Virus record (IMG/VR): IMGVR_UViG_3300018424_000222 | Span: 1-25,698 of that record | DNA length: 25,698 bases | Source of the DNA: a virus | Direction: 5' to 3' (one strand) | Shown: one piece after another, positions 1-22,379 of the stretch | How the letters are laid out: every line of letters begins with the position of its first letter | Position numbering within the stretch: position 1 is the first letter of the stretch | Notes under the pieces: model-generated | Seen by the model: only the letters and a program-made list of their open reading frames with translations | Databases searched by the model: none | Told to the model about the DNA's origin: nothing | Translations under genes and position numbers: made by a program

Positions 1-981
1 AGGATCCTTGTAGGAGATCTTATATACACGAAGGTTCTCATTCTCTTGGAAAGATCCATCACTGATGACCGACAGGGCATTAATGTTGTTCAGGTTGCCT
101 GCATTAATTGCAGTGGTAGCAATCGCAGTCAGTGTATCCAAAGCAGCCTGCACGTCAGCACAGTTAGCAGCATCTTGGTTATTGCCCTGAGAGTAGTTGG
201 GATCGTATGTATGACCTTCACTGGAAGAAGTCAGATAAGGACCAGGATATGTGGTGGGATCATAGAGTAAGGTCAGATCCTTGTCATACAGCAGGTTGTT
301 GATGGCAAGTTTTGCCATGTCTCTTGCCTTATTGAAGGCAGTGATGGACTCAGCAGTCTCACCAACCAGACCATTGCTGATAGGAGTGCCGCTGGCATCA
401 AAGTAGAATCTAGTGAACTTGACAATACCATAGTTACCATCGCCCTTGATGTCCTGAACCAGAGCATCAACAAAGTATCCAATATCACGACGACACTTGG
501 TCTCGTTGCTGCTATATGTGCTGGGTTCGGAGAGTTCGATCAGATCGGAGAGAGATCCAGCAAGCAGAACCTCAGACACGTTGTCGAACAAGGTTTGCAG
601 GGCAGACTGAACATCAGAGCAATTTGTAGCCCCATAGTTAACAGTATTGCTACCAGCAGTACCATAAGGATTTCCAGGGGAAGGATCAGCAGTGATACCA
701 GTTCCACTAGAACCACCAGTGCTGCGCTCATCGTACAGATTATAGACAGTAGCACCAACAGTATCAGTGCCCGTCAGCATGTTGGTCAGAGCATTCTTCA
801 TGTATCCAAGTGCTTGCTCGAATGCATACTCAGTTGCTTCTGCTTCGTTGTTGATGTACAGGAAAGTCAGACCATCATCACTGAAATACATCTGCAAGAA
901 CTTGCGAGTGTAGACAGTGCCACCTTGGAACATATCCATCGAGATTGCATCGATGAAGTGACCGATATCACGCTGACACTT
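1..981 (-). repeat. C-terminal tandem repeat of the giant protein (KCxRDIG units)
   Basis: Two units of roughly 160 residues follow each other. Each opens with K-C-x-R-D-I-G-x-F-x-D-A (K codons at 979-981 and 496-498) and continues with an aromatic-rich strand. A helical stretch with N-N-L or N-x-L follows, then N-C-x-D-V-Q-x-A-L (asparagine codons at 622-624 and 163-165). The second unit runs close to the window edge and more copies may follow. I have seen this signature in other large cyanophage structural proteins, but its function is unknown to me. Confidence 0.75.
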
Positions 982-3900
982 AGTCGGAGAGGGAATCGGT
1001 AGTGCAGGATACTCAACGGTCATGTCCTCATAGGACTTGGCAATGATGTAATCCTTATTGCGATGGATGAGACGATATGCATCAGCATATCTGCTGAACT
1101 GATCAGTCTGGTTATCACCAGGATAGTAGAATCCAGGATGCTGAACAGCGATTTCAGCATTAGCAAAGTCAACGATCTCTTGCTTATTAGCAGCGATTCT
1201 GTTGGCAGCGTCAAACCATCTGTTCAACGCATCAGTTGCGGGATTACCATAAGTAACGGTAATAGAACGAATTACATCACCAACTGCGATAGTTCCACCA
1301 GTCAGATTCTCATATTCAACTTCTGTCGAGCGAACTTCTTCAAAGTCGAGGAAGTCTGCGTTAACACGATCGTCGCTGTCGAGGATTTCAACGGGCGTGA
1401 TTGTGGTCTTAGAAATGTCATCTAGAATGACATTCTGATTAGTCAAGGAAATGAGACGCTCGAAGATCATACCAAAGAAGGTAGATCCTTTGTTAATTAC
1501 CAGGGTATCGACTACATCACCCAGTCTGACTTCACCAGACACAGTTTCAGTAGTAGCAGTATAAGTTCTAACACCTGCAAATTCGGTATAGCCTTGAACA
1601 GTTTCGCCATCGGTTAAATCAGTCTCACTACTCTTCAAGTAATACAGAACAGGAGGAGATGCCTCAAAGTCAATCTTGACAACTTCACCAGTAGCACCAG
1701 ACGTAAGACCTTCAAACTTATCACCTTCAACCATAGTGGACCATGCGCCAGTAACAGCAGAAGGTCTTACCAGATTGATGCTGACGATAGGATCTCTGTA
1801 AGGTGAAATGCTAGTAATCTTTGCAGCAATATTAGATGCAGCAGAATAGAAGATGTCATTCAGGAACAAGTTATACTGACCTGTCTCAAACTCAGCAGTA
1901 CCAGAAGTCTTAGACAGAACCAGTGCGTCAGAAATGTTGCCATCCAGGTCGAGGTTTGTTTCTTCAATGACGGCAGTGTCGCCATCCATGTTAGTGACAG
2001 TCTCACCAAACTCGAAGATAGTCTTATAGTTGACACTATCAATGTTCAGGATATTTGCATTATATCCAGCATTGAAGAATCTGATATCCTCACCACGATC
2101 AAAGAATCCGTTGGACATATCTGTCACTTGGATGCTGCTATCAGTCAAGTCGATGGAGGTAATCGTTGCTCTCGCACCTGTGGTTTGACCAACGATAATG
2201 TCACCGATAAGAACTGTACCGAATGTGCCACCAATGTTTTGGAGGAACAATTTGGTGAAGGACTTGTCAATGCTTCCAATCAGGGCACTAAATCCAGTTC
2301 TACTAACATCAACGCGCTCGTTCAGAGCAAATGAACCATTGATGTCAACAACATCAATGCTAGTGGCACCTGTTGCAACAACCTTGGCGCTAGTTTCAGT
2401 TTCAAAACCAAAAACGTTGTCACCGATGGAGGGGAAAATACCAGCAATAGTATTCAAATTCAATCTGGTGATAGGCATGAAATCGAACTTGATGTTGCGA
2501 TACACAACCTTAGAGTCAGGTCTCGGTGCCTCAGAGAATACAATCTGGTTACCAACCACCTGATAAGAACTACCAGGAGACTGAATAACACCATTGATGG
2601 TCACGAGCAGTTGGTCATTCTTAACAATGACTTGCTGCCCTTCAACTGTCAGTGGGAATGCTTTGGTGACACCATCGAACTGAGAAGAAATATCATCAAT
2701 CTTCTTAACGATAGAGGTCAGAATTTCCTCAGAGTTGGTCAGTCTCTTCTTACGGAAGAGAACTTCGGAGTTGTTGAAGGTCGAGTAGATCGGTTGAGCA
2801 GCACCGAACGAGGTAATCTCGTTGACGTTAGTGTACTCATTGATGTTCACCTGTTTGGTAAAGTCAGCGGCAACCTTACGACCAGAGATATCTTTACCAC
2901 CAGTCAGTGACAGCTGACCGAACATATTAAAACCAACAGGGTGGTTGTTTTGGAGAATCTGGGACTTCCATCTGTTAATGGGAATCTCAGACTTAATCAC
3001 ATAGGAGAAGTTTTGATAGAAGAAGGAATCTTGAATCTTCTGAACGATCTCGGATGGTTTACCAACGTCATCAGTAAATCTACCAGCAGTCTTGGTAATA
3101 GCATCAATGTTCAGAACACCCTTAGCAATATTGATGTTGTCGATGACACCAGATGCACGAGAGATAACACCCTGCACCTTACCACCAACAACGAAGTCTC
3201 CTTTGGGGTTAGTGACTTTCAGGATCTTGGGTTCGATCTGCCAACCATCGTTGGTTGAAACAATACCAGTGGCAGTTGAAAGTTCTTGTGATTCGCCTTG
3301 GAAGACTTCCTCGCCTTCCAGGAAGCGAGAAGTTTCGACCACTGCTTCTGCTTTACCACCGAAGACCTCAGTGAGCAGCACTTGACGACCAGCACCCTGA
3401 GTTAGGAAGGTAATGAAGTTACCAGACTCAGCGTCAACTGGGGTCAGTGCAAAACGCAGCTGGTCAGATTCGAGACCATTAACTTCACCAGCGATAGCAT
3501 AATAGGTCTGAGTAGCAGACAGACTGGTCAAACCGACGCTGCTGGGTTTCGGCAGTTCGCCAACGGTAGAACCAATCGCGTCAGCACGGAATTGAACCTC
3601 AGCACCAGTGGTAATACCATGAGGGAAGTTAAACTGCAAGTAGTTCAAATCGAGGTTCACAACATAGGTGAACTCAGATTTCAGGGTGACGACTGGTTGC
3701 GAAGAGTAACCAGAACCAGGGTTCTTGATCAGAATCTCAGACAGTCTGTTGTTCTTAACAACTGCTTCTGCCTCAGCACCAGTTCCACCACCACCTTGGA
3801 TGATAACAGCAGGTGCAGAGGTGTAACCAGCACCAGGATCGGTGATGGTGATCTGAGAAAGAATAGAGGTGTTGAAGAGTTGCAGGTTGATTGGGAATGC

Positions 3901-6900
3901 AATCTCAGGACGCAGAGTGTAGTCATGGGAGTAACCGTAACCAAACTCATTATTTTTCAGAGTCTTGATCTTACCGATCTGTCTACCAGTGAGGAATACA
4001 GCAGCGCCAGTACCCTCAGCAGGGATAACAACCTCAATCTCAGCACCAGAACCAGACAATGTAGGTCCGAGGATACCTTGAATGGCATCAATGTCAATAG
4101 AACCAAATGTGTAACCCTTACCAGGATCAGTCAAAGAAACCTGAGTGACAGTTCCAGATCCAATAATATCATCATTCTCAACAGTGATATTACAAAGACC
4201 ACCTTCACCATCACCCAAAATAGGAACCTGTGTATATACGCCAGGTGCATATTCAGTACCACCCGAAAGGATACGCAGTTTCTCAATCTTACGATCAGAT
4301 GCAATATCAGAAATGATAGGTAGTTTCTTGTAGAATCCACCAGGAGAGATCAACTTAATAGAGTTGATAGGACCAATTGCTTTCTTAGAAGTGGTGGAGT
4401 AGATCGTATTGGGTTTGTCTTGGTCATCGAGACCGATCTCAGCATTGTTGAATTCAGGTTCATGCAGCAGTGGGAATCTGAACTCAGTATCACTAATAAC
4501 TTCGCTAATCTGGAATCTACCATCATAGGGAGTCTTGATAACGTCAATAAACGAATTAGATCCCACAGGAGACGTTGAATCAGTTCTGGACGGGTCGAAG
4601 TAGTAAGTAATGTTAGTAACCTCACCACCGATCGTAAACTTGACCACAGGAGTCTCTGTGGCGGAAGAAAGACCAGGAGTGCCTTCACGTTCGATTACGT
4701 TGAAAGAATATTCCAGTTTGTACTGGTTGTCTTGTGCAAACGACAGATAGTAACCAAAGTTGGAAGCATCACTCATATCGAAGATGTAGGAGTGATTTCT
4801 AACCAGAAGCAGTGTTGGGTGCTTGGAAGAGATCTTCACACGAGAAATAGCACCCTGTGCAAATGCAGGATCAGCAGTAGCAGTTGCTCTCAACTTGTAG
4901 GTGAAATCTCTGGAAGAGAAGACTTCCTTAACAAAGAACGAACCATTGAATTCGGCAGTAGTGAATCCTTCAACAAAGAGGATATCATTGTTGGAGAAGT
5001 TGTGAGGAGTCAGTGCAGAACAGTAAATCAGGTCAGTTCTGTTGTCAGCAGTTCTAATGATGTCCTTATTGAGATTTACAGTCAAAGTAATCTCTTTGAC
5101 ACTTGCGAGACCAGAGACCTCGGCAATCTTATTATCAGTATCTTCCTTAGGACCAGCATTGATGCTATTGCCCAAAGAAACAACGTCACCAATAATAAAG
5201 TCAGAACCAGCATATGTATTGACAATTGCTACTCTATAATCTGCCAATGCAAATGGACGGAATCTTGCATAGTCGGAAAGGGGATCATATGTACTAACGA
5301 AGTCCCAGGTGACTGTTCCATCAGCAGCACTACCTGTGGTGTGTGTTGGTCCAACAGTGCCCGATACACCGCCAGTGGCACATTGATACTTGTTTCTACC
5401 GTAGAAGACAACATCGCCAGCAACGTATGTAGTGGTTGCGATCCATTCTGGGTCGGTGGGAGCAGGCCATGGGAAATCTGCAAGATCAACTTCAATATTG
5501 GGCGCTGCACTGATATAAGACCAAAGAACAGCGCCATCAGTTACGATGCCAATTTCATGAGTGGGTGCGGTGGAACCAGATGTTGCATTGTTTGTAGCAG
5601 AGTAAATCTTACCATCGCTCCAAACTTGATCATTGACGGAATATGCCTTACCTGCTTCCCAAGCATTCTGAGAACGCTTTACAGTAAAGGAAATTTCATC
5701 AATGGTATTCTCTTCCTCTTTATCATTCTTGAAGAGATCATCGTCGTTGAAAGTTCCATAGATTTTACCGACCTTGTATGCAGTTCCAAGACCAGGAGTG
5801 TTAACACCACCAACAGGAACTTCTACAATAGTGCCATATGCTTGAACAACGCCATTGTCGTTATACTGTTGAATAATGGACCCCTTCTCAAACTTAACGT
5901 CCTGATTGAAAACAAATTCCCTAACAGCATCGATCTTCTGATAACCAGCATCTCTGATGTAATATTTTGGTACAACAACAGGATCAATTTTCAGTTTTCT
6001 ACCCAGAGGGGTAGGAATGGTCGATGTTTTAGTTGAGTAGGTGTGTCTATTAGTGCTGAATGTATATGTACCAGGTGCAAGAGTAGAAACGACATCAGAG
6101 AAGTCAAGAATTTGCAGACCAGAAGGACCCTCATTCCAAACAGTAATTACAGGATTGGAGAGTGTATTGACATTGAGAGTTGTGTTTGCTGTAAAAGCAA
6201 TACTCTCGGTGTAGTTACCATCATATCCAGCGAAGGTTGTATTGTAATCGCCTCTCTTACTGTGCAGACGATCAAACTTAACCAAATCAAGCGCAGAATC
6301 CTGAGTTGTAATTGTATAACGCTCAGTGGGCACTTGCAGAGAAGAACCACTATAAACTGCACGAGATTCAATAACAATATCATCGATGTTGCCAACAAAA
6401 CTATTGCCCACAAGAGGACCTGCTTCTTGACCACCAACAATCAAGTCATTCATCGAAATTTCATCAACAACTGTTGCAGTTGCAACATTTACACCATCAA
6501 AATAGCAAGAATACACATAGGAACCAAGACTGGGCTCTTCTTTAACCAAAGCAATATGGTGCCAATCACTATCAGCCAAAGTAGTAGCATAAGTCGAACC
6601 AATCGACCAAACAGTAGTTGTGCTACCACCAGAAGGTGCAATTTCAAGTGCAATCTTACCAAAGTTACCATCACCAGAATCGAGGTTCATGATGTACTGA
6701 ACGGTGCTGCCAGAATCATCTTTGGCAGTAATCATCTCAATTCTAGGATTGTTGGTTCCATGAGTAGGTGCCATACGCACCCACATCACATTTGTCCACT
6801 GTTCAGTCAAATTCAGATCTGTCCACTTCACATAGTTGGCATCTGCAACATTTAGCGAATTTGCGCCAAATTTGAAGATAGAAGAATCCTGAGAAACAGC

Positions 6901-9900
6901 ATTGCCATCATATACGCTAATTGTGGACTTATTCTGCTTAGTATCGTCAAAAGTGAGCGTAGCGTTCTCAAATCTATGTACAACCTCTTGAATGGGGTTT
7001 TGGAGGTTCAGTGGGAGGAGAATATCACCAGAGTTGTCAACAGCATGAGTATTGAGTGTGAAACCGATCCCATTATCACTGCTAGTACCATTCCACTGCC
7101 CACGGATCACATTTGTGGAGTAGAGAGTAGTTCCATCATATTTGAATCCAGAAATGACTGCTTGGCGATCATTATCTTCATACGCAACCTCAGTGACAAC
7201 GTTAACGTTGCCAAATACGTCCACAGTGATTCCAGCGTGCTTAATTGACTCAAAATTAACTGTGGGTGCCATGATCTTGGCAAAATCCCACTGAGGAGTC
7301 GCAACAGTCAGTCTAATCTGGTCCAGAGCGATCTTGAAGAAGGCAACACCATAATTCTTGGTGCCATTCCACATATCGCAGACAAAGAACAGATCGTTGT
7401 ACTCATCTAGCACAAATTGAGGTCTTTGAACGTCACCACCAGAAACTGCAAGACGTTTGACATATTGAAGTTCAATATTCGCACCGTCATACTCCATGAC
7501 GCCAAATAGAAGGTCATTATTGTCTTCATCAATGCCACAGAAGGCAACTTGGTTGTCACCGAGGTAATACAGTTGATGCATCTGCTCACCTTCGGTCTCA
7601 GAAGCAAACTTACGCTTCTCTACAACGTCACCTTGGTTATTGAGCTGCATGACCCAGATATCATCAGGATCGGGCGAGTTGGTATCGGTCCAACCACAAA
7701 TATAGACTCTTTGCTCTTCATCCAGGTAAATATCACCAGCATAATCGCGACGAGTCGTACCAGACACACCAGCGATCTCTTTCTGGAACCTTACAATACC
7801 TTCTGGGTTGTTGCCATTATCCAGACCAGACTCATACTTAGCAACCAGGATGTCAGGATTGTAATTAGCAGTTCCTTGGGATTCTGTTTCACCAATCAGG
7901 TAAATGAGGTGGTTAGTTTCGGATGTTTGGTCAAGATACATCTTTTTCCAACGTGCCGTCTTGATGGACGCACTAGGAAGCAAGGATCTGTCCCAAACGA
8001 GACTACCAAGGTCATTATATTTGGCAAGGAATGCTGCACTGTCGCCATTTGGTTGAACGATCTCGCCACAAACATACAGGTTACGATCATCAGCAACTGC
8101 CGAGTCGTGAATCTTGATCTGACAGTTTGTTTGAGTCTCAGAGTAGATTGTGGACCAATAATAAGTCTTCTTAAACTTCTGAGGGTGAGATACACGAATT
8201 TGAGGAGGAAGGTCGGTATCGTAGTTATAACCAGAGTTGATGATGTTTACTTTATCGATCTTACCTGTCGTCACATCCAAATCAATGTCAAGTTCAACGT
8301 CTTGACCAGTAGTTGTGATGATTTCGTAGGTCGGAGGAATCGACTCGTTGTAACCAATACCAGTTTGCAGAACATTAATGGAATCGATGCCTGTAACCAC
8401 AGACATGTAGAATCTCTTGTTCGTATTCTCCGTAATGACTCTGGAACTGACGATAACTTCGTCTTGGGCAATCAGTTCGTGGTCTGTTTCGGTTGTAATT
8501 CTTCCATAGGGGATGTCGTTGATGACTTCCTTTCTATATTGGGAAATGCTGGCACCTTGAACAGATTCAACTTGTGCGCTAGCACCAAAACCGTCCGTTC
8601 CAGTATTATCGAAGAAGAGAGTATCAGAAACCTGATAGGATACACCAGGATTCTCAATAACAAATCCATCGATCTGAGCATTCTCAAATTTCGTTGTCGT
8701 CTCAACTTCGATATCGACTCTGGACTCTGTTGAAACTCTTGGGAAGTAATCATAGATTTGAAGTGCTGCTTCTTCTGTCATCGCCTGTTGTGTGGCGATT
8801 TCATTAGGAGAAATGATACCATCATTATCTATATCCTCTGTTTCAAAGAGAATCAAGAATCCTTCTTTCTCAGTGACCAACTGATCCGACTGTTGGTTTG
8901 GTTGACGATCAATGTCGATATCAACATCCTCATAAGGATCTCTATAACGAGAAACGTCAGAAGGAATGTTTTCCTGAGTTGCGTTCAGACTGAGGTTCCA
9001 AGTATCAACAACAGAGTTGAACTCAGGACCAATAATATAGGGGAATACGGGCAGACCTGCTTCCGATGCATCAATAGTGATGAAGTATGCATAGATGCCA
9101 TCAGGATATTCAGGTGTTTTACAGAAACGTCCGTTATATGGGTCAAGGTCACCCTCTTGGAAGGTATATTCATAGTCATCAATGAATTGACCAGCAGGAT
9201 ACTCGCTCAGAGGAGGTCCATCAACGCGAGCGGGGTTTGGATTAGTATCAATATCATATACAACGTTTGCTTTTAGTTTATAGGAAGAACGCATTCTTCT
9301 GATACCACCATTCTGATCGGTAGGATCAATGTAACCATATGGACCATAGATCGGGTTACCATCAAACGCCCAACCAATAATCGGGGAGTGGGTGATAGAC
9401 GCACCAGTCTCAGTACCTTCCTCAATGAATTGATTGTTCTCGGGGTTCAGAATAACATTGTCACCAACCACATAACGCAGTTCTTTCGGGTCGGAAACGT
9501 GTGCATACTCACCACCATACTGGTTGTTGAAACCAGTGAAGACATAACCGCGAGCAACGTCATACTTACTGCTAAGTTCATATTCAACGTTTTTGTTCCA
9601 TTGGAAGACAGATGCTTCAAACGTTGCAAGTTGACCAACCGCTTCTAGTCTGACAGTAGTATTACCTTGGGTATAACCAACACCTCTGTTGGTAATTTGA
9701 ATAGAGATAACCTTACCCTTATCTTCACCCAAAGTACCGATGACCGCTTTTGCTTGGGCACCGAAACCATCACCATTAATATATACAGTGGGTGCAGTGG
9801 TATATGCAGCACCAGAGTTAATGATAGCGATAGAAACGATACGACCATTAATGACAATTGGTTGTGCCAGGGCACCTTCACCCGAGTTCAGTTTAATATC

Positions 9901-12900
9901 GGGGGTAGAAGTGTATCCACTACCTCTGGCAGTGAGAGTAACGCCAGAGATTTTACCACGGACTTGTGCAGTGGCAGTAGCGCCAGAACCGCCACCACCA
10001 GTAATGGAGATGGTAGGTTGTGATGTATATCCAGTACCAGGGTTACCAACCAGAACACGAGTCACACGACCGTTGGTAACAACTGCTTGTGCGGTAGCAC
10101 CAGATCCACCACCACCAACAATAGAGATCAAAGGTTGTGTGGTATAACCACTACCCTGATCGGTCACTTCAATGGCACTCAGAGCGCCATTAACAATTAC
10201 CTCAGCAGCAGCACCAGAACCACCGCCACCAGTAATTTCTAGTTGTGGTTTGCTGCCAGCATCATAGTCAATACCACCATTAGTGATAGTGATTCCAGTT
10301 ACAGGACCATAAGTAACATAATCTTGATCCTTGTAAGACCATGCAGCAACACCATTGACCCATGCACCGATCGGGGTATTCGGTTTGACGGTAGTTCTAG
10401 TAGATACTGTATTTACATTTCTAGGGAATCTCAGCAGTTTACGCTGGTTACCAGGAATCAGAGCAGATCCTTGGAACGGACCAATCTTATAGTTGGGCAG
10501 ACCAGAGGCAGCAACGTAAACGTAGTCATTATTGAAGAAAGAGTTCTGAACGTTAGAAGTAAACAGAGAGATAACTTCATCAATAGTGGTCTGGGTAGAC
10601 TTACCTCTGTTTAGGTCCACAGACAGGAGGATGTTACCCTGAGGTTCGATGTCAGTGGGAACAGGGATCAGATAAGAGAAAGTAAACTCATCCAGACGTG
10701 CAGTAACCTCAAATGTGCCGTTATACACAGCAGGGTTTGCACCATAGATGGTCACAGCGTCTTCAACGAGCAGACCATGGGGGTTAGAGCAGGTAACAGT
10801 AGCAGTTCTGTTCAGACCACCTGGTTCAATACGATCAACACGGATCAATTTCTTGACGTTGTACAACCAAGACTGCAAACGTTCATCATCGGCAGTAGAA
10901 CCCAGAGCAGCAACATTCAGTTTGTCGCCAGGCAGATAATAGGATCCACTGTCTTCAAGAACAGTTGTTGCCGCCTCAGCAATACCCAGAATACGAAGTT
11001 TAACTTCTGTACTCAGTCCTTTGTTGACATATACAAAAATATCAGAATGAATCGTTGTACCAGGATCCCAGTCCTCTACAACGCCATTCTTGGAACGAGT
11101 ACACTCGATGAATTGGTTCAGAGACTTATCTTTATACTGAACAACCTCTTGATCATCAATAATGATTGTACCGTTCTTTTCTGGCCATCCAATAGTGGAG
11201 TCAACGGTAATAATTCCCTCTGTGGTATCCAGAGGTTCAACTAGGACTGTTTTATAGGGAATCTTAAATTCACCACTCAGAGTTTCTTCGGAAATTGCAA
11301 GTTCGTAAATAACATCAGTACCTTCGATGATCGAAATGACGTTTTCGATCAAAACTGATGCATCTTTGATATTTTGGTCAACAGGATCGGCAATTTGAAC
11401 CAACTGAGCGTTAGTTAAGTTGACGGGATCACCAGAAATCAGTTCTGCACGCAAAATGGTGTCTACGACCCAAGATGCCGCAGACGGAGTGATCATTTCA
11501 TCCTTAGGATAGAAAACATCAATCTCTTCACCGAACAGAATCTTAAATAGATACTGTGTGGCAACTTTTGTACCTTTGGAGAGGTAGAAATCCTTAATAT
11601 CTCTAATAACACGAACAGGATTGACCTGAGAATAGTCAATCTGGATCGTGGGCATATATTGACGACGGAACTTGTCAAATACCTCACGAATAATTTGAGA
11701 ATCGAGGTTATGGACTACTGAACCAGAACTGTGACTTGTTTGAGACAGTGCAGACTCTGGTGCATACACCTGATTACCATAATTATCAAATTCGACAACA
11801 TCAGAGACGCCACGAGCACATCCACGCAGCGAAGAGGGTTCATAATTACGACCACCAGAGAGAATGTTGAAACCAGTAACCTCACCGAAACCAACATCGC
11901 ATGATGCTTGTGCCGAAAGAGGTTCAGCAATGTATACCTTCGGTGGTTGAGTGTCAGAATACCCAGAACCAAAGCTGACGATGTTAATGTCGGTGATCTC
12001 ACCGTTAAAGATGGTAGCAACTGCCTGAGCACCAGTACCACCGATCGATTCGCCCAGAGGACCCTTACGATCGTCTACAATGTAGACAGAAGGAGCGTCG
12101 GTATAACCAGAACCACCTGTCAGCAGGTTGATATTAGTTACATTACCGTTCGCAACGGTCACATCAAGCACCTGTGCGCCCACAGGTTGAATAATACGAG
12201 CACGAGGGGCAGTCAGATACCCTCTACCTCTGTTTATGATAGTTACGCTGACAACTTGACCATCAGGTGATACAGAGCAAGTTGCTTCGGCATTGATGCC
12301 ATCCTCAGGGGCGGGATCAATGTAAATTTCAGGGGGATTGCTATACCCAAGACCAGTCTTGACCACAGAAATCGAATTAGCAACGAGACGACCCTCAGAA
12401 TCGATTACAGGGTCGCTGATCTCAGCACCATTAGGATTGATGAATGAAATGGCAGGAATGAAGTCATATCCAGATCCAGAGTTGGTAATCTCAATACCAG
12501 AAACCTGACCAGTGGTATCATCAACAGTAATTTTCGCTGCTGCCTGAGATCCATTGATCAAATCAGACGGAGGAGTAATGCTAATAACAGGTGGGTTATA
12601 CGAATTATAACCTTGACCACCATTGATCAGTTTGGCATCCTTGATGCCATTGACAAGAGTACGACCAGCGGCAGCTTCACCAATACCAGTCGAAGAAAAG
12701 ATGGAAAGTTTGGGGGCAAAGTTTAGTTCATATCCGCTACCGCCATTTTTAACAATAATTCTATCAATCTCACCATTATCACCAACACGAGCAACTGCCT
12801 CAGCACCTTGACCAACAGTCGGAGACACATATTCAATAGAACGAATATGGAATGTGTCCTGAGTGGAGATATTGATAAAATACTTGATTCTAGTATTATT

Positions 12901-13710
12901 ATCAGTCAGAACATAATCAACATAGGGACGTTGAAGCACACCATTCCTATTAATGATCAGACCAATCTCGGCAATCGGTGCATATTCAAGATTCTCATAC
13001 TGCATGGTCATAGAATCTTGACCTTGCAGATCGCTAACCGAAGGTAGAACCAATTCCTTAATGATCGAATCGGCAAAACCAATGTAATATAGGATCTGAG
13101 TCAGTTCTACCTGATCATTACCTGTACGGGCACGAGGTGCCTCTGTAAAAATGATCTCAGACCCATTGATCGTGTAGTCTACCTGGGGGACCAAAAGTTC
13201 CCCGTAGATCGTTACAGCGAGGTGTTCGGCAGATACAGGGGATACGGGTGTACCGAGGAATTTAAGATCAAATGTTCTACGAGTGCCGTCAAAAAATTCC
13301 CAGGGAGATTCAAGTGCCTGTCTTTTCTTATTAAATTCTTCGAGAGAGATACCAGGGGTCAGAATAGCATCAGGACCACGAACTGTATTCTCATAGTAGA
13401 TAACTTCATTATCAATCATCACCGAACCATTGTTCGGTATAAAACCATCAATCTGTTCGACTTCGATTAGATCATTAATGGGATCAACGTCCTTGATCAA
13501 CACTGTCGAGGACGTTAAAGTCTTCTGGTCGTAAGCATCAATATCCAGATATTTCAGGATATTGTTCAGAACATTATAGGCGCGACCTGTCTTCTCCTGA
13601 GACTTATAGTATTCAACTAAAAAGTTAATCAGTTGTTCATCTTCATTACGGATGAACTCTGGGAGTTGATTAGCAACTCTATCAGAAACGTTGATCGTAT
13701 TTGCGAACAT
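1..13710 (-). CDS. Giant multidomain baseplate/tail-adhesin-like structural protein (3' end outside window)
   Basis: I read every triplet of this phase from 13710 to base 1 and found no stop, so at least 4570 codons are open and the C-terminus lies beyond the window. The ATG follows the gp6 stop by 7 nt, with an AAGAG ribosome-binding sequence in the gap. Modules from N to C: a phage-structural domain (residues about 1-65, resuming about 664-745), eight G-x-G-Y repeats, a second set of six, a YHYH domain, a beta-propeller-like stretch, a LamG/concanavalin-like domain, two chitin-binding-type modules, a third G-x-G-Y set, and a tandem repeat with K-C-x-R-D-I-G. Position after gp6 suggests a baseplate-attached protein, perhaps replacing T4 gp7/gp8 or acting as a host-binding fibre; that role is inferred. 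The modules are read by eye, without profile searches. Confidence 0.93.
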   Translation of the reverse strand, partial: MFANTINVSDRVANQLPEFIRNEDEQLINFLVEYYKSQEKTGRAYNVLNNILKYLDIDAYDQKTLTSSTVLIKDVDPINDLIEVEQIDGFIPNNGSVMIDNEVIYYENTVRGPDAILTPGISLEEFNKKRQALESPWEFFDGTRRTFDLKFLGTPVSPVSAEHLAVTIYGELLVPQVDYTINGSEIIFTEAPRARTGNDQVELTQILYYIGFADSIIKELVLPSVSDLQGQDSMTMQYENLEYAPIAEIGLIINRNGVLQRPYVDYVLTDNNTRIKYFINISTQDTFHIRSIEYVSPTVGQGAEAVARVGDNGEIDRIIVKNGGSGYELNFAPKLSIFSSTGIGEAAAGRTLVNGIKDAKLINGGQGYNSYNPPVISITPPSDLINGSQAAAKITVDDTTGQVSGIEITNSGSGYDFIPAISFINPNGAEISDPVIDSEGRLVANSISVVKTGLGYSNPPEIYIDPAPEDGINAEATCSVSPDGQVVSVTIINRGRGYLTAPRARIIQPVGAQVLDVTVANGNVTNINLLTGGSGYTDAPSVYIVDDRKGPLGESIGGTGAQAVATIFNGEITDINIVSFGSGYSDTQPPKVYIAEPLSAQASCDVGFGEVTGFNILSGGRNYEPSSLRGCARGVSDVVEFDNYGNQVYAPESALSQTSHSSGSVVHNLDSQIIREVFDKFRRQYMPTIQIDYSQVNPVRVIRDIKDFYLSKGTKVATQYLFKILFGEEIDVFYPKDEMITPSAASWVVDTILRAELISGDPVNLTNAQLVQIADPVDQNIKDASVLIENVISIIEGTDVIYELAISEETLSGEFKIPYKTVLVEPLDTTEGIITVDSTIGWPEKNGTIIIDDQEVVQYKDKSLNQFIECTRSKNGVVEDWDPGTTIHSDIFVYVNKGLSTEVKLRILGIAEAATTVLEDSGSYYLPGDKLNVAALGSTADDERLQSWLYNVKKLIRVDRIEPGGLNRTATVTCSNPHGLLVEDAVTIYGANPAVYNGTFEVTARLDEFTFSYLIPVPTDIEPQGNILLSVDLNRGKSTQTTIDEVISLFTSNVQNSFFNNDYVYVAASGLPNYKIGPFQGSALIPGNQRKLLRFPRNVNTVSTRTTVKPNTPIGAWVNGVAAWSYKDQDYVTYGPVTGITITNGGIDYDAGSKPQLEITGGGGSGAAAEVIVNGALSAIEVTDQGSGYTTQPLISIVGGGGSGATAQAVVTNGRVTRVLVGNPGTGYTSQPTISITGGGGSGATATAQVRGKISGVTLTARGSGYTSTPDIKLNSGEGALAQPIVINGRIVSIAIINSGAAYTTAPTVYINGDGFGAQAKAVIGTLGEDKGKVISIQITNRGVGYTQGNTTVRLEAVGQLATFEASVFQWNKNVEYELSSKYDVARGYVFTGFNNQYGGEYAHVSDPKELRYVVGDNVILNPENNQFIEEGTETGASITHSPIIGWAFDGNPIYGPYGYIDPTDQNGGIRRMRSSYKLKANVVYDIDTNPNPARVDGPPLSEYPAGQFIDDYEYTFQEGDLDPYNGRFCKTPEYPDGIYAYFITIDASEAGLPVFPYIIGPEFNSVVDTWNLSLNATQENIPSDVSRYRDPYEDVDIDIDRQPNQQSDQLVTEKEGFLILFETEDIDNDGIISPNEIATQQAMTEEAALQIYDYFPRVSTESRVDIEVETTTKFENAQIDGFVIENPGVSYQVSDTLFFDNTGTDGFGASAQVESVQGASISQYRKEVINDIPYGRITTETDHELIAQDEVIVSSRVITENTNKRFYMSVVTGIDSINVLQTGIGYNESIPPTYEIITTTGQDVELDIDLDVTTGKIDKVNIINSGYNYDTDLPPQIRVSHPQKFKKTYYWSTIYSETQTNCQIKIHDSAVADDRNLYVCGEIVQPNGDSAAFLAKYNDLGSLVWDRSLLPSASIKTARWKKMYLDQTSETNHLIYLIGETESQGTANYNPDILVAKYESGLDNGNNPEGIVRFQKEIAGVSGTTRRDYAGDIYLDEEQRVYICGWTDTNSPDPDDIWVMQLNNQGDVVEKRKFASETEGEQMHQLYYLGDNQVAFCGIDEDNNDLLFGVMEYDGANIELQYVKRLAVSGGDVQRPQFVLDEYNDLFFVCDMWNGTKNYGVAFFKIALDQIRLTVATPQWDFAKIMAPTVNFESIKHAGITVDVFGNVNVVTEVAYEDNDRQAVISGFKYDGTTLYSTNVIRGQWNGTSSDNGIGFTLNTHAVDNSGDILLPLNLQNPIQEVVHRFENATLTFDDTKQNKSTISVYDGNAVSQDSSIFKFGANSLNVADANYVKWTDLNLTEQWTNVMWVRMAPTHGTNNPRIEMITAKDDSGSTVQYIMNLDSGDGNFGKIALEIAPSGGSTTTVWSIGSTYATTLADSDWHHIALVKEEPSLGSYVYSCYFDGVNVATATVVDEISMNDLIVGGQEAGPLVGNSFVGNIDDIVIESRAVYSGSSLQVPTERYTITTQDSALDLVKFDRLHSKRGDYNTTFAGYDGNYTESIAFTANTTLNVNTLSNPVITVWNEGPSGLQILDFSDVVSTLAPGTYTFSTNRHTYSTKTSTIPTPLGRKLKIDPVVVPKYYIRDAGYQKIDAVREFVFNQDVKFEKGSIIQQYNDNGVVQAYGTIVEVPVGGVNTPGLGTAYKVGKIYGTFNDDDLFKNDKEEENTIDEISFTVKRSQNAWEAGKAYSVNDQVWSDGKIYSATNNATSGSTAPTHEIGIVTDGAVLWSYISAAPNIEVDLADFPWPAPTDPEWIATTTYVAGDVVFYGRNKYQCATGGVSGTVGPTHTTGSAADGTVTWDFVSTYDPLSDYARFRPFALADYRVAIVNTYAGSDFIIGDVVSLGNSINAGPKEDTDNKIAEVSGLASVKEITLTVNLNKDIIRTADNRTDLIYCSALTPHNFSNNDILFVEGFTTAEFNGSFFVKEVFSSRDFTYKLRATATADPAFAQGAISRVKISSKHPTLLLVRNHSYIFDMSDASNFGYYLSFAQDNQYKLEYSFNVIEREGTPGLSSATETPVVKFTIGGEVTNITYYFDPSRTDSTSPVGSNSFIDVIKTPYDGRFQISEVISDTEFRFPLLHEPEFNNAEIGLDDQDKPNTIYSTTSKKAIGPINSIKLISPGGFYKKLPIISDIASDRKIEKLRILSGGTEYAPGVYTQVPILGDGEGGLCNITVENDDIIGSGTVTQVSLTDPGKGYTFGSIDIDAIQGILGPTLSGSGAEIEVVIPAEGTGAAVFLTGRQIGKIKTLKNNEFGYGYSHDYTLRPEIAFPINLQLFNTSILSQITITDPGAGYTSAPAVIIQGGGGTGAEAEAVVKNNRLSEILIKNPGSGYSSQPVVTLKSEFTYVVNLDLNYLQFNFPHGITTGAEVQFRADAIGSTVGELPKPSSVGLTSLSATQTYYAIAGEVNGLESDQLRFALTPVDAESGNFITFLTQGAGRQVLLTEVFGGKAEAVVETSRFLEGEEVFQGESQELSTATGIVSTNDGWQIEPKILKVTNPKGDFVVGGKVQGVISRASGVIDNINIAKGVLNIDAITKTAGRFTDDVGKPSEIVQKIQDSFFYQNFSYVIKSEIPINRWKSQILQNNHPVGFNMFGQLSLTGGKDISGRKVAADFTKQVNINEYTNVNEITSFGAAQPIYSTFNNSEVLFRKKRLTNSEEILTSIVKKIDDISSQFDGVTKAFPLTVEGQQVIVKNDQLLVTINGVIQSPGSSYQVVGNQIVFSEAPRPDSKVVYRNIKFDFMPITRLNLNTIAGIFPSIGDNVFGFETETSAKVVATGATSIDVVDINGSFALNERVDVSRTGFSALIGSIDKSFTKLFLQNIGGTFGTVLIGDIIVGQTTGARATITSIDLTDSSIQVTDMSNGFFDRGEDIRFFNAGYNANILNIDSVNYKTIFEFGETVTNMDGDTAVIEETNLDLDGNISDALVLSKTSGTAEFETGQYNLFLNDIFYSAASNIAAKITSISPYRDPIVSINLVRPSAVTGAWSTMVEGDKFEGLTSGATGEVVKIDFEASPPVLYYLKSSETDLTDGETVQGYTEFAGVRTYTATTETVSGEVRLGDVVDTLVINKGSTFFGMIFERLISLTNQNVILDDISKTTITPVEILDSDDRVNADFLDFEEVRSTEVEYENLTGGTIAVGDVIRSITVTYGNPATDALNRWFDAANRIAANKQEIVDFANAEIAVQHPGFYYPGDNQTDQFSRYADAYRLIHRNKDYIIAKSYEDMTVEYPALPIPSPTKCQRDIGHFIDAISMDMFQGGTVYTRKFLQMYFSDDGLTFLYINNEAEATEYAFEQALGYMKNALTNMLTGTDTVGATVYNLYDERSTGGSSGTGITADPSPGNPYGTAGSNTVNYGATNCSDVQSALQTLFDNVSEVLLAGSLSDLIELSEPSTYSSNETKCRRDIGYFVDALVQDIKGDGNYGIVKFTRFYFDASGTPISNGLVGETAESITAFNKARDMAKLAINNLLYDKDLTLLYDPTTYPGPYLTSSSEGHTYDPNYSQGNNQDAANCADVQAALDTLTAIATTAINAGNLNNINALSVISDGSFQENENLRVYKISYKDP
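3700..4335 (-). repeat. G-x-G-Y beta-repeat cluster C in the giant protein
   Basis: Six degenerate repeats carry glycine-rich turns ending in tyrosine: GGFY, GGTEY, GKGY, GYGY, GAGY and GSGY. The tyrosine codons begin at 4330, 4249, 4111, 3931, 3823 and 3706. Several are followed by P-x-V and then by GGGGTGA-type glycine turns. The last three are the closest to clusters A and B. They probably form short beta-hairpins in an extended shaft; that fold is inferred. Confidence 0.7.
5296..5661 (-). repeat. Two CBM5/12-like (chitin-binding-type) modules in the giant protein
   Basis: Two 50-residue modules, 5661-5512 and 5445-5296, share the pattern W-x5-Y-x2-x-D-x-V-x4-x-Y-x-A/C-x-N/G-x2-S-G-x2-x-P-T-H-x3-x-x-x-D-G-x-x-x-W. 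Aromatic residues at the start, after the first loop and at the end are typical of the small carbohydrate-binding modules of families 5 and 12, which are common on phage tail proteins and chitinases. Both copies are 150 nt and sit 66 nt apart. Binding to a host surface glycan is inferred. Confidence 0.65.
6340..6970 (-). other. LamG/concanavalin-like domain in the giant protein
   Basis: The stretch begins with a short beta segment ending in F-K-F-G-A-N-S-L and then reads W-T-N-V-M-W-V-R. Next come D-S-D-W-H-H-I-A-L-V-K, Y-F-D-G-V-N-V-A and finally F-V-G-N-I-D-D-I-V-I-E-S-R-A-V-Y. The order of the W-H-H-I-A-L, F-D-G and G-x-I-D-D signatures is that of LamG-type jelly rolls. Such domains usually bind carbohydrate or protein ligands. 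The boundaries are approximate. Confidence 0.75.
7250..8185 (-). other. Beta-propeller-like (SBBP-type) domain in the giant protein
   Basis: About 310 residues repeat a blade-like pattern: a hydrophobic strand of the form V-Y-I-C-G-W or L-Y-V-C-G-E, a polar turn rich in D, N and S, then a strand such as D-I-W-V-M-Q-L or A-A-F-L-A-K-Y, and a turn with N-x-x-G-x-V-V. At least five such units are visible. This resembles SBBP/YVTN-type propellers, which act as binding platforms. The blade number and exact family need a structure prediction. Confidence 0.6.
9070..9400 (-). other. YHYH domain in the giant protein
   Basis: The stretch reads T-H-S-P-I-I-G-W-A-F-D-G-N-P-I-Y-G-P-Y-G-Y and later G-D-L-D-x-Y-N-G-R-F-x-x-T-P-E-Y-P-D-G-I-Y-A-Y-F. 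The first part (G-W-A-x-D-G-x-P-I-Y-G-P) and the second (L-D-x-x-N-G-R, T-P-E-Y-P-x-G-x-Y-A-Y) are hallmarks of the YHYH family, found in bacterial secreted proteins and cyanophage structural proteins. Its biochemical role is not known to me. The closing Y-A-Y-F replaces the Y-H-Y-H that names the family. Confidence 0.85.
9670..10270 (-). repeat. G-x-G-Y beta-repeat cluster B in the giant protein
   Basis: Six units have tyrosine codons starting at 10264, 10144, 10027, 9913, 9802 and 9673, a spacing of 111-129 nt. The middle units are the most regular. They read G-S-G-Y-T-T/S-x-P, a short strand, G-G-G-G-S-G-A, a strand rich in A-x-A-x-V, then N-G-x-V/I and a return strand. The regular unit of about 40 residues suggests recent internal duplication. 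Confidence 0.85.
11840..12735 (-). repeat. G-x-G-Y beta-repeat cluster A in the giant protein
   Basis: Eight units have tyrosine codons starting at 12730, 12607, 12466, 12343, 12217, 12103, 11959 and 11842 (spacing 114-144 nt). The last unit has drifted to G-G-R-N-Y. Each unit has a G-x-G-Y turn, an N/x-P-P-x-I strand and a return strand containing G-x-V or G-x-I. This block separates the two halves of the N-terminal phage-structural domain. Confidence 0.85.
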
Positions 13711-13717
13711 TTATCTC

Positions 13718-15880
13718 TTAGAAACAGGTTTCCGTTTCGGGATACACAAAGGCATCCACGGGGTAGTTGATTGTATTTATGCCACCGCCACCATAGTTCC
13801 AACCGTCGAAATTGAACGGATCGAAGTTAGCGATAGCGACATCATCCACATTAATATCTCTCGGATATACCTCTGGGTTGAAGAGTGTCGGATCAACCCC
13901 AGCAGGGATTTTGATAGATCCAGGTCCAGGGAGAACAACCACAGGAACTCTTGTAGTTCCGTCAGGAGTGTCTGCAATATTCAAAGGACCAACACAAACT
14001 TGTCCAGTTGAATAATTAACCGTACCGACAGAGTTGTTCAGGATGACTTCTTTTTCGTTTCTGTTAGTAACCATCATCATATTACCGAGTCCATCATCAC
14101 GAAGATTGACAGGAACCAAGGTAGATGTACTAGATGTGGTTGCATTGAAGAGGACATTTTCAAGGGCACTGTTACCACCCGCCAGAACGGCATCTGTTCC
14201 AGTAGTCCCTGTCAGGAGAGATCCTGCTGCTTCGCCAGCACCAATCAAATCGGCAACCTCTTCGGTATAACCAGTAGCGTAGAATGTTCCACTCTTAACC
14301 GAGGAGAACTTAGGTTTACAAACGCCACCGCCATCAGTGCCGTTGCCACCATCACCAGTGCCATCACCAGCACCGCCATACTTGTTAGGATCAGTGATGG
14401 GGTTATCAAAGTCCAAACATTGTGTGAATTGATTGCCAAATGTGAATTGGTCAAGATTTTGTCCCAAAGACATGTGTGTAGTTGTACCAGCAATCGAAGT
14501 ATCTGACGAATCAATCATAGAATTGAATTTCGACAGTTCCAAGCGACCACCAAAGCGATCGTTTCGGTTTTGAGAGTTGAATTGATCAACAGACTTCAAA
14601 ATTGCAGATGCAAGTTCATTGGAAGAACGAGTAGTATCGTTTCCGTTGAATGTTGGGTATACTTTTGGAGAAATATAGAAAATTCTGGGATCGACGATGA
14701 TCGGTTCGATCGATGCCATCGAATAATTCAGTAATTGGTTCTTGATCCTCTTCTTGGTAGTGGTATTGAGGTTAACACCTGTCTTGGATCTTACTGAAAT
14801 GTAAACTTTGCCGTATTCTGGGGGAGACAACTTCTCACCACCATATGCAGTGACAGATGCTGCCTGAGGATAAAGTTCAGACACTAGATATGCGTAGTCT
14901 GCCTCAGTCACTGCTCTGTTTTGGACAGAAAAGGACTTAGGGGCACGATATTTGATGCTTAGACCAGTTTCTCGGTCTTCTCCATCTGCCGCATTCTCAG
15001 TTGTCTGCATAGTGAGAGATGCAGGCAGCACAATACGACCAGAATTATCGATCAGACGACCAATAAAGTTGAACTTAGTCGCACCATTCGCCTCTGGACC
15101 ATCTGTGTCAAGATATTCAATAGTAATGAACTCATTATCGATCAATTTGCGCCCAAGAACACCATCACCGAAGGAAATCTTGTATCTGAGATCTTCCGTC
15201 TCTTCCAGGAAGTAGACACGAGAGGTAGAATCGAGTGCCGTGATGTTTTTAGCCAACGAATATTCGTCAACTTCGACAGACTGCTCGTTGGGACGCACTA
15301 AAACTTTGATTCTTTCAGTATCTACGTTCTCTGAGGGTATAATGTACTCAGGTCTAGCAGTATCATCAACTGTGTAACTATATTTGAGCAGGTTGCCTTG
15401 ATAAATTGTAATTTTTGAAAATGTGGCAATACCAGTATTCTGATCAACGTTACTTTCGACGGTACTTAACAGTGCATAGGTGTAAGATTCGCCATCAACG
15501 TTGGTGACAAAGACATCACCCTTCTCAATTTTAACTGTGTCGGGATATGACTGCCCACCAGGCAGTGTTGCCGCCTGTACGGTCATTGAAACGCACGCTC
15601 TGGACGATTTCTTAGACCTAGGAGTGTATCCAATCTGCTTGGCAATCCTTACGATGTTGTCTCTAACAGTCGCAGATTCAAGGAACGCCTCATTCATCGA
15701 CATGTTTGCCGTGAATGCAGCATAATATGTGTTGTATGCTAAGATATCGATCAAGTATGAGGCAGCAGAACCCTCAAAATCATAATCCGTGAACTCTGAA
15801 CGAGTTCTTAGATAAGATCTGATAGATTCTTTGATCTCAAAAAAGTCTAGTGACGTTAATTCTGACGGAAGTGCTGCCAT
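13718..15880 (-). CDS. gp6: Baseplate wedge protein gp6
   Basis: This 720-aa protein matches the T4 gp6 family, which forms the inner ring of the baseplate wedge and links neighbouring wedges. T4 gp6 is 660 aa, so this copy is a little longer. The N-terminus is typical: F-F-E-I-K followed by L-R-T-R-S-E-F-T-D-Y-D-F-E-G-S, then Y-L-I-D-I-L-A-Y-N-T-Y and N-E-A-F-L-E-S-A, with T-P-R-S near residue 90. The middle contains the baseplate-J-like region, including R-A-V-T-E-A-D-Y near residue 330. A glycine/aspartate-rich linker at about 14380-14323 separates a C-terminal beta-rich segment. It starts one base after the gp25 stop (TAA-A-ATG) and precedes the giant gene by 7 nt, so the three are surely co-transcribed. 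Confidence 0.93.
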   Translation of the reverse strand: MAALPSELTSLDFFEIKESIRSYLRTRSEFTDYDFEGSAASYLIDILAYNTYYAAFTANMSMNEAFLESATVRDNIVRIAKQIGYTPRSKKSSRACVSMTVQAATLPGGQSYPDTVKIEKGDVFVTNVDGESYTYALLSTVESNVDQNTGIATFSKITIYQGNLLKYSYTVDDTARPEYIIPSENVDTERIKVLVRPNEQSVEVDEYSLAKNITALDSTSRVYFLEETEDLRYKISFGDGVLGRKLIDNEFITIEYLDTDGPEANGATKFNFIGRLIDNSGRIVLPASLTMQTTENAADGEDRETGLSIKYRAPKSFSVQNRAVTEADYAYLVSELYPQAASVTAYGGEKLSPPEYGKVYISVRSKTGVNLNTTTKKRIKNQLLNYSMASIEPIIVDPRIFYISPKVYPTFNGNDTTRSSNELASAILKSVDQFNSQNRNDRFGGRLELSKFNSMIDSSDTSIAGTTTHMSLGQNLDQFTFGNQFTQCLDFDNPITDPNKYGGAGDGTGDGGNGTDGGGVCKPKFSSVKSGTFYATGYTEEVADLIGAGEAAGSLLTGTTGTDAVLAGGNSALENVLFNATTSSTSTLVPVNLRDDGLGNMMMVTNRNEKEVILNNSVGTVNYSTGQVCVGPLNIADTPDGTTRVPVVVLPGPGSIKIPAGVDPTLFNPEVYPRDINVDDVAIANFDPFNFDGWNYGGGGINTINYPVDAFVYPETETCF

Positions 15881-15881
15881 T

Positions 15882-16295
15882 TTACGTTCTTTCTAAGAGG
15901 AATTCGATTACTTGAACTAATTCTTCACCGATAATGCGATATTCAATAGCAACGTCAACGGTGTGTTCATCATCAGAAAGACCAACCACAACATCTTCAA
16001 CCTCAACACGCGGTTCAAGTCGCTCAATCGTGTTGATAATTTCATCCCTAATGTCCTCGGACGTAAAAACGTCGAAAGGTTCAAACAAAAGTCCTGTTAC
16101 GCGAGACCCGATGTCAAATTGAAAGGGTCTATCACCAAAATTTGTCAAGATAAGGTTCCGAACGGACTGCTTGATAGCATTCTCGTTCTTGACAGTGCTG
16201 AAATCCTCCGTATTGGGGTTCTGGTTAAAGGACATAGAGAAATCCTTGTACCCCCGTGAGAGAAATTGCTCTGATCGGAACCTATACCTTGACAT
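15882..16295 (-). CDS. gp25: Baseplate wedge protein gp25 (lysozyme-fold family)
   Basis: This is a 137-aa member of the gp25/IraD family, the wedge component next to the sheath that starts sheath polymerisation in contractile tails. The family core is clear: S-R-G-Y-K-D-F-S near residue 14, V-K-N-E-N-A-I-K-Q-S-V-R-N-L at 36-49, then G-D-R-P-F-Q-F-D-I-G-S and I-E-R-L-E-P-R-V. T4 gp25 is 132 aa. The ATG at 16295 gives the expected N-terminus; no good Shine-Dalgarno sequence is visible. A T4-type late promoter lies 30 nt upstream, inside the end of the preceding gene, so gp25, gp6 and the giant gene can be expressed as a late unit. Confidence 0.93.
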   Translation of the reverse strand: MSRYRFRSEQFLSRGYKDFSMSFNQNPNTEDFSTVKNENAIKQSVRNLILTNFGDRPFQFDIGSRVTGLLFEPFDVFTSEDIRDEIINTIERLEPRVEVEDVVVGLSDDEHTVDVAIEYRIIGEELVQVIEFLLERT

Positions 16296-16657: not shown

Positions 16658-17200
16658 CTAAGATGATAGCACATTGGGGGACCCATACGCAACTACGCTG
16701 TTGCAAGGATATGACCACCCCATCCAACCAGGAGTTCCGATGCCAAGGGGATCTAGAACTCGTCCGACAGGTAATTTGTTGGCAAAAACAGTTAATGTTG
16801 AAGAGAATAAGAACCTGATATGCCCTGTTCCTGCATTATCTTCGATTGTTAGGATTGAACAAGGTTCAGGAGTTGGCACTGGGCACAGAGCATTTTGGCA
16901 AGGGCACATGTAGATAACAATATTTGTACATACTGAGACGTGTGGAGTAAACTGATCACCAAAAGTCATTGCAGGAAGACCATTCACAAGCACAGTCGCC
17001 TTAATTGGGTTGAGTGCAGTGAGAGGAACTAATGGTTGTGGTGGCCACCAGCATGTCCATTCCTTAATAACGATGCTATAAGGGATTGGAGGAGTCTTGC
17101 ATGGTTGTACAGAGTGTACCGTAGGAGGCACACAGATGCCGTGTCCCGAGTCTGGAAGACCCGTGACGGGTGCAATTGGTAGTAGGAGACCGAATGCCAT
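16658..17200 (-). CDS. PAAR-like tail-spike tip protein
   Basis: This 180-aa protein looks like a PAAR-family tip, the small cone that caps the central spike of contractile tails (T4 gp5.4). The N-terminus has the P-V-T-G-L-P-D-S-G-H-G pattern. A central V-L-V-N-G-L-P-A-M-T-F-G-D-x-F-T-P-H carries the G-D and histidine that in PAAR proteins lead to the metal site, and T-V-F-A-N-K-L-P-V-G-R follows near residue 135. Unusual is the richness in proline, cysteine and tryptophan, including C-P-C-Q-N-A-L-C near residue 112. It begins 3 nt after the 1430-aa gene stops and ends 19 nt before the 49-aa gene. DUF4280-type PAAR relatives are the alternative family. The spike-tip role is inferred from motif and context. 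Confidence 0.7.
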   Translation of the reverse strand: MAFGLLLPIAPVTGLPDSGHGICVPPTVHSVQPCKTPPIPYSIVIKEWTCWWPPQPLVPLTALNPIKATVLVNGLPAMTFGDQFTPHVSVCTNIVIYMCPCQNALCPVPTPEPCSILTIEDNAGTGHIRFLFSSTLTVFANKLPVGRVLDPLGIGTPGWMGWSYPCNSVVAYGSPNVLSS

Positions 17201-21496: not shown

Positions 21497-21747
21497 TAGG
21501 GTTCGAGGACCTTGATTCTATCTTCCAACATATTTAGGCGGACATATAGATCATCGAAGAGTTCCCGCATGTTGAGATAATCCTCATACCCTTCTGGTTT
21601 ATATTTGAGCATATCGGGACCAGGCTGCGGCATGTGTCCAAATGCCTTCTCCAATACACCAATTCTATTGCCAAGATTCTCTAACCCTTTGGCAATCATC
21701 TCCATGTGCTCTTTATACACATCAAGGAATTCTTCTTGTTGATTCAT
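21496..21747 (-). CDS. Small coiled-coil protein, 83 aa
   Basis: The protein is helical at both ends. An N-terminal helix has leucines and isoleucines in heptad spacing (residues about 5-35). A proline/glycine-rich centre follows (H-M-P-Q-P-G-P), and the C-terminal helix ends in L-N-M-L-E-D-R-I-K-V-L. The start overlaps the oxygenase-like gene by ATGA and the stop overlaps the 1430-aa gene by TAATG, so translation of the three is probably coupled. It may be a chaperone or trimerising partner of the large protein; that is a guess from the coupling and the coiled coil. I do not recognise a family. Confidence 0.82.
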   Translation of the reverse strand: MNQQEEFLDVYKEHMEMIAKGLENLGNRIGVLEKAFGHMPQPGPDMLKYKPEGYEDYLNMRELFDDLYVRLNMLEDRIKVLEP

Positions 21748-22379
21748 AAGAATGGTACTGATAACATCATTTCATTGTTTGGGTCATGTTCCTTACAATA
21801 CATCATTGCTTCCGTAGTGTAAAGATCCCAGGCAAGTGCAATACGATCATCGTCAGATTCATTCGTATCTACCTTATGCTCTACCCATGATGGGAAGAGT
21901 GTCACTGTGCCTGCTTTCGGCATTGGTCTGAAATTCCCACCATATGTAGAATACCCTGGTATTACATATTCTGTGTGAATCTTACTATCAGTCAATAACA
22001 TGTTACCTGATAGAAATGTATTCTCATGTATTGAATGATGATGAATGGGTAATGCTTCCCCTGGTTTCAATACATTGAACCATCCACGAATCCATATTCC
22101 TGTGGGCATCTCATATACAATCTGACTCGCAAATTGTGTATACATGCTTTCAAGAATATCAAGAAGACCATGAACGTCCTCCTGAAAATAATTTTGCTCG
22201 TACCATGGAGTGTTGGGATTCTGGGAAAGAATTTTTTCCACAAGTTCAATCCGAACATTATCTACCCACATCGGTACATCTACCAATGGTGCGAAGCGAG
22301 TATTAGGTTCCCAACTCCGCCACCAATATAACTTGTCGGAAGTACCGTAACGCCTCCCTGGACAATCCTCAATACTCAT
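21744..22379 (-). CDS. 2OG-Fe(II) oxygenase-like protein (TIGR02466-type) in the tail operon
   Basis: This 211-aa protein has the layout of small double-stranded beta-helix oxygenases that use Fe(II) and 2-oxoglutarate. A histidine cluster H113-H114-H115 is followed by F-L-S-G-N-M-L. A second strand reads G-T-V-T-L-F-P-S-W-V-E-H with H168, and R179 lies in D-R-I-A-L-A-W. The likely iron ligands are two of the 113-115 histidines and H168, with R179 for 2-oxoglutarate. The usual acidic ligand is not obvious. It is coupled by ATGA to the coiled-coil gene and heads the tail operon, which suggests a virion or tail substrate rather than a metabolic one. That role is inferred. Many cyanophages carry several such genes of unproven substrate. 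Confidence 0.78.
   Translation of the reverse strand: MSIEDCPGRRYGTSDKLYWWRSWEPNTRFAPLVDVPMWVDNVRIELVEKILSQNPNTPWYEQNYFQEDVHGLLDILESMYTQFASQIVYEMPTGIWIRGWFNVLKPGEALPIHHHSIHENTFLSGNMLLTDSKIHTEYVIPGYSTYGGNFRPMPKAGTVTLFPSWVEHKVDTNESDDDRIALAWDLYTTEAMMYCKEHDPNNEMMLSVPFL

Follow-up and report, generated by a model that had tools for sequence, protein, structure and literature searches.

A stop-free cyanophage frame that probably encodes a giant gp7-type baseplate wedge protein with inserted arms and phycobiliprotein-like repeats

The stretch of viral DNA analyzed here (the window) is an entire IMG/VR contig of 25,698 bases, and it raises the question of what protein is specified by a minus-strand open reading frame that begins with an ATG at position 13710 and continues as far as the contig's left end (1–13710), through 4570 codons that contain no stop and no N. 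The first-pass annotation had claimed that this frame is uninterrupted, that it leaves the window still open, and that standard ORF listings miss it; each of these claims was borne out, as gene callers that ignore open ends would skip such a frame. At the given base composition the probability that a stop-free run as long as 1–13710 on the minus strand would arise by chance is ~10^-116, and codon usage within the frame is position-specific. Over 25 kb the contig shares 95.3% identity with Synechococcus phage S-WAM1. Across 4,569 aligned codons the frame and its S-WAM1 counterpart are collinear, with 2 gap columns; differences at the first, second and third codon positions number 125, 63 and 510, respectively, such that third positions dominate, and dN/dS is ~0.10 (~0.018/0.178). 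The collinearity, the third-position bias and the dN/dS together indicate that the frame is real, and the collinearity and dN/dS rule out an assembly artefact or read-through. The S-WAM1 version of the gene reaches its stop and specifies 6,737 aa, so that ~2,168 codons, or roughly one third, are missing from the copy in the window. The window therefore contains the N-terminal 4,570 residues of what is probably a gp7-type giant baseplate wedge protein, the 3' end of whose gene is cut by the contig edge.

Proteins of this kind belong to a family that is known and annotated, and a giant frame by itself is ordinary for cyanophages. In particular, 476 phage records contain a match, and orthologues measure 6,619 aa in S-SZBM1, 6,737 aa in S-WAM1, 7,351 aa in P-TIM40 and up to 8,573 aa in P-RSM6, where a single frame of 8,573 codons (8907–34628, minus strand) takes up 13% of a 192 kb genome. 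The earlier suggestion that the window protein is among the largest phage proteins thus holds for its size but not for its singularity, as such proteins are standard in the Kyanoviridae. Several relatives already bear the name gp7 or baseplate wedge initiator in their annotated records; those of P-SSM4, P-HM2, S-SZBM1 and S-WAM1 (phrog_701) are direct orthologues with the same architecture, and the window protein differs from them in no essential respect, being a further member, here cut short, of the clade of P-RSM6 and S-WAM1. Because relatives are already called gp7, the novelty of the gp7 part lies in its architecture of insertions. In the overall reading developed below, the frame probably belongs to a Sokavirus-like marine cyanomyovirus.

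The extreme length of the frame might suggest a polyprotein that is cut into several structural proteins at assembly. However, the S-SZBM1 orthologue (S-SZBM1_208), a virion component, was identified in CsCl-purified particles as one entry of 724 kDa (6,619 aa, 71 peptides, 13.5% coverage; PMC9146016), which renders a polyprotein quite unlikely. A 1,937-aa version of the protein, ORF122 of S-CREM2, was likewise detected in virions (91 peptides; PMC10665884).

Several lines of evidence suggest that the frame probably encodes a baseplate wedge protein of the T4 gp7 type, in which a conserved core of three segments (A, B and C) is separated by long inserted arms that carry additional modules. As the first-pass annotation had indicated, the frame lies downstream of gp6: a gp6-like baseplate wedge gene occupies 13718–15880 and a gp25-like baseplate wedge gene 15882–16295, both on the minus strand (as are all features of the window given below), so that the order gp25–gp6–gp7 is the same as in T4. 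A phmmer search of the PDB with the whole frame returned no match. BLAST with T4 gp7 (1,032 aa; 5iv5, 5hx2) revealed two collinear stretches, with T4 residues 733–758 corresponding to residues 707–732 and T4 residues 866–897 to residues 3572–3603, and iterated profiles over 16 proteins encoded in the gp7 slot resolved three collinear core segments. Segment A (residues 3–75; 13486–13704) is helical and common to all gp7-slot proteins examined, and its T4 equivalent is weakly placed at ~644–697. Segment B (residues 655–798; 11317–11748) is homologous to T4 gp7 residues ~733–758, and segment C (residues 3532–3628, RWKS...HPVGF; 2827–3117) to residues ~866–897. Profiles built without T4 recovered T4 gp7 with E-values of 1.7e-8 for B and 3e-5 for C (Z=300), whereas the corresponding profile for segment A pointed to the right place in T4 gp7 but at a non-significant E-value of 1.7. 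In a blind search of 177,635 PDB sequences, T4-type gp7 ranked first for both B (9.9e-6) and C (0.006, a marginal value).

The fold was assessed in a compact homologue of 896 aa from viral contigs (L131) rather than in the window protein. The model of this homologue was closest to gp7 structures (9f4a, Z 11.5; 5iv5, Z 11.1), with the next row that was not gp7 at 8.6. Its confident barrel was best matched by T4 gp7 residues 762–852, and the matched span of the model, residues 231–617, places the barrel on both sides of what we refer to as insert 2. In the AlphaFold model of the compact homologue the core segments on their own had pLDDT values below 50, and only the barrel and the beta-repeats were usable; low confidence for A, B and C alone would be expected if their folding requires gp6. 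The core sequence searches and the fold of the compact homologue thus bear out the earlier description of the product as baseplate-linked. The likeness to T4 gp7 therefore comprises the position after gp6, the collinear segments B and C, and the beta-barrel fold as seen in the compact homologue. Unlike T4 gp7, however, the giant protein has no counterpart of T4 residues 1–640, it has extra stretches of 579, 2,733 and ~3,109 residues, and the lectin-type and phycobiliprotein-like modules are its own.

Database labels suggest other identities for gp7 homologues. Among the labels given by PHROG and by the records are head closure Hc2, gp14 neck, gp8, YadA and short tail fibre (for example, at positions 33435–36485 of L096), and these would place the giant in a tail fibre, in the neck or in the head. 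The head closure, short tail fibre and YadA labels of PHROG were traced to shared repeats, and the homologues have apparently been mislabelled on account of GSGY repeats and other modules that are common to unrelated structural proteins. What is unique to these proteins is the core, which agrees with gp7 in sequence, position and fold, and we consider a fibre, neck or head protein very improbable.

Comparison across the family reveals where the protein has grown. Compact gp7 homologues (Melnitz, HTVC008M, phiN3 and BUCT-ZZ01) share segments A, B and C with the giant but are only 607–1,016 aa long, have few or no extra modules and are without phycobiliprotein-like repeats. The number of residues between B and C is 18 in T4, 121 in BUCT-ZZ01, 322 in Melnitz, 446 in HTVC008M, 737 in phiN3, 1,572 in S-CREM2, 2,090 in ACG-2014f, 2,117 in S-SSM7, 2,280 in P-HM2 and 2,733 in the window. 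Between A and B there are 0–71 residues in most members and ~575 in the group to which the window belongs, and after C there are 0 in phiN3 and S-CREM2, 112 in T4, 3,109 in S-WAM1 and 4,942 in P-RSM6. This graded series, from 607 to 8,573 aa, reveals the sites of growth: a wedge core that is small and conserved, with arms inserted into it, accounts for the great size of this virus protein. Judged from its sequence, the giant is a T4-type wedge protein enlarged ~sevenfold through inserted modules of predicted sugar-binding type.

The inserted stretches consist of recognizable modules. Insert 1, which is missing from compact relatives, contains beta-repeats of the GSGY type (residues ~300–628; 11827–12813). 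Within insert 2, GSGY beta-repeats at residues 1124–1355 (9646–10341) and 3135–3344 (3679–4308) flank a YHYH domain (PF14240, E 9.5e-29; residues 1398–1548; 9067–9519), a beta-propeller-like region (residues ~1860–2230; 7021–8133), a concanavalin/laminin-G lectin-type module (residues ~2275–2475; 6286–6888) and a tandem CBM5/12-like pair that falls slightly under the Pfam cut-off (residues 2690–2853; 5152–5643). The lectin-type module matches domain 4 of the arabinanase AbnA (Z 17.6) and also a phage tailspike structurally, and a second copy of it in S-WAM1 is PF13385. In an AlphaFold model of window residues 1391–2530 only the lectin module was confident and the YHYH domain was unfolded; the propeller, with an SBBP-like repeat below threshold and a model pLDDT of ~50–65, is weakly supported by structure.

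In the mechanism that we propose, the A/B/C core would grip the gp6 dimer in all six wedges, as it does in T4, most likely with one copy of the giant protein per wedge by analogy with T4. Arms are inserted at three sites, namely between A and B, between B and C (inside the beta-barrel of gp7) and downstream of C. They are chains of beta-repeats bearing the YHYH, propeller, lectin-type and CBM-like modules, with tandem phycobiliprotein-like domains on the C-terminal arm. The types of module suggest that the arms extend outward from the baseplate and would bind glycans on the cell surface at adsorption, and they make plausible the part of the earlier reading that envisaged a very long adhesin. 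Such arms might stand in for long tail fibres, which are reported to be absent from S-SZBM1, S-WAM1, P-RSM6 and P-TIM40 (PMC9146016). In a chemostat coevolution experiment with S-PM2d, mutations arose in very large ORFs of 3,338 and 3,779 aa (PMC9910659), which fits a role in host contact; repeat-bearing frames of S-PM2 agree in size with these ORFs, the phage and the sizes being the sole basis of the match.

Two things raise the frame above an ordinary cyanophage giant: its split-core architecture and, still more, a set of domains that the earlier reading had overlooked. The C-terminal arm contains two phycobiliprotein-like repeats in the window, copy 1 with the motif KCQRD (residues 4198–4331; 718–1119) and copy 2 with the motif KCRRD (residues 4354–4500; 211–651), and seven copies in S-WAM1; the repeats are helical and related to the pigment proteins with which the cyanobacterial host harvests light. 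The S-WAM1 protein scored 52.5 bits against PF00502 (cut-off 22.2), and the window protein alone scored 22.0, just under the cut-off. When a profile of 31 phage repeats was searched against the PDB, the best 60 of 149 matches were phycobiliproteins or their close kin (top 3.8e-8), and the phage C-x-R-D motif aligned onto the chromophore cysteine site of phycocyanin. A second profile, made from 18 non-overlapping copies of S-PM2, S-RSM4 and S-WAM2, retrieved phycobiliproteins first (2.3e-5) and nearly exclusively; the same 18 copies in reverse gave three chance matches in the PDB, at E-values of at least 0.46, and no phycobiliprotein. The chromophore residues Cys84 and Asp87 are each kept in 30/31 and 18/18 copies, and Arg86 in 17/31 and 15/18. 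At the level of sequence, the repeats are thus homologous to phycobiliproteins and have kept the chromophore site.

The likeness to phycobiliproteins (PF00502; phycocyanin alpha) resides in the globin-like core, over the helices around the Cys84 site, and in the C-x-R-D chromophore motif. Profile similarity begins at about phycocyanin residue 37, and the first ~36 residues, the region of the N-terminal X-Y helices (alpha-beta dimer), are unmatched. Unlike phycobiliproteins, the phage copies are arranged in tandem and fused into a tail protein: across 30 phage genomes, every match to PF00502 falls within frames of 3,226–8,573 codons, with none a separate subunit of 160–180 aa, and we therefore refer to the repeats as phycobiliprotein-like rather than as phycobiliproteins. 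A 453-aa repeat stretch used as a query matched 348 phage records, all of them from cyanophages. We found no account of phycobiliprotein-like phage tail domains in the open-licence literature.

Do these repeats carry pigment? They might bear bilins linked to them covalently by CpeT, a bilin lyase that the phage itself encodes, such that the virion or the assembling tail would be a bilin-protein. The profile matches and the conservation of Cys and Asp described above speak for this reading, as does the distribution of CpeT (PF06206, a T-type bilin lyase). The repeat is present in 18/26 cyanophage genomes examined, and CpeT scored above its family cut-off in 17/18 genomes with the domain and in 0/8 without it; ACG-2014d and P-SSM7 were counted as positive only with fragments summed, and the one exception, ACG-2014f, has a weak domain match. 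All five genomes picked after the prediction had been written down agreed with it (5/5). Furthermore, in S-PM2, S-RSM4 and S-WAM2 cpeT lies 1.0–1.5 kb upstream, on the same strand, of a repeat-bearing tail gene of 3.8–4.8 kaa. However, the Fisher p value for the association (5.8e-6) is not to be read at face value given shared ancestry. A portal-protein tree implied ~4 changes of the domain trait, and independent pairs gave 2 agreements, 0 disagreements and 1 tie (p 0.5); with so few changes common descent may explain the association, and shared ancestry is at least part of the reason for it. A scan for further complete genomes of the Bellamy/S-SM2 clade yielded mostly fragments.

The association also has counter-examples. 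An S-type lyase is present in S-CREM2 and other cluster C phages, and bilin reductases in P-SSM2 and S-SSM7, in each case without the domain, and among the cyanophage genomes examined there was no clear association between the domain and ferredoxin-dependent bilin reductases. Moreover, T-type lyases usually act on the beta Cys153/155 site and not on Cys84 (compare PMC10452541). Taken together, these observations leave bilin carriage a possible but rather unlikely reading. In the P-SSM7 genome (13416–14535), cpeT adjoins a ferredoxin-dependent bilin reductase gene.

The repeats might instead have a structural role alone, as a helical fold put to new use as a spacer or oligomerization unit, in which case Cys and Asp would have been retained because folding needs them. 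Giant phage tail proteins often recycle repeat folds and the arm is a tandem array; just 17/31 copies retain the Arg, and bilin genes occur in some phages that lack the domain. Set against this are a near-invariant Cys-x-x-Asp in repeats that are ~25% identical, within a protein with 0.4% Cys, and the co-occurrence of the domain with CpeT. On balance we consider structural reuse somewhat more likely than true carriage of bilin by way of CpeT.

Even so, true bilin binding by the repeats of baseplate and tail giants, with CpeT loading the C-x-R-D cysteine with host or phage PebS/PcyA bilins, deserves to be stated, if only as a tentative and doubtful proposal. In the work of Gasper et al. in 2017, the PEB complex of phage CpeT reportedly did not transfer to host phycobiliprotein. 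The acceptor that phage CpeT serves may be the phycobiliprotein-like domain, and the repeats, which place an intact chromophore site in phage tail proteins and tie it to the phage's own lyase, are a concrete candidate substrate. According to a 2023 review, CpeT attaches bilins to host phycobiliproteins, to a benefit that is a matter of speculation (PMC10452541). If the repeats are loaded with bilin, then the tail proteins made by marine cyanophages would be pigmented, and the purpose of the "auxiliary" bilin genes would lie in assembling the virion or in interacting with the host and not in the harvesting of light by the host.

The remainder of the window also contains tail genes. Upstream of the gp25-like gene, a PAAR-like spike-tip protein (phrog_281) is encoded at 16658–17200; the matching stretch of S-WAM1 has no annotated PAAR gene. 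Between this gene and a small upstream ORF lies an ORF of 1,430 aa (17204–21496, minus strand) whose entire length matches phrog_22792 (unknown function) and which also gives a partial match to phrog_719, a baseplate wedge subunit. Next to the tail genes are two look-alike ORFs (21744–22379 and 23961–24587, minus strand), and the S-WAM1 counterpart of the first of these is annotated as a 2OG-Fe(II) oxygenase.
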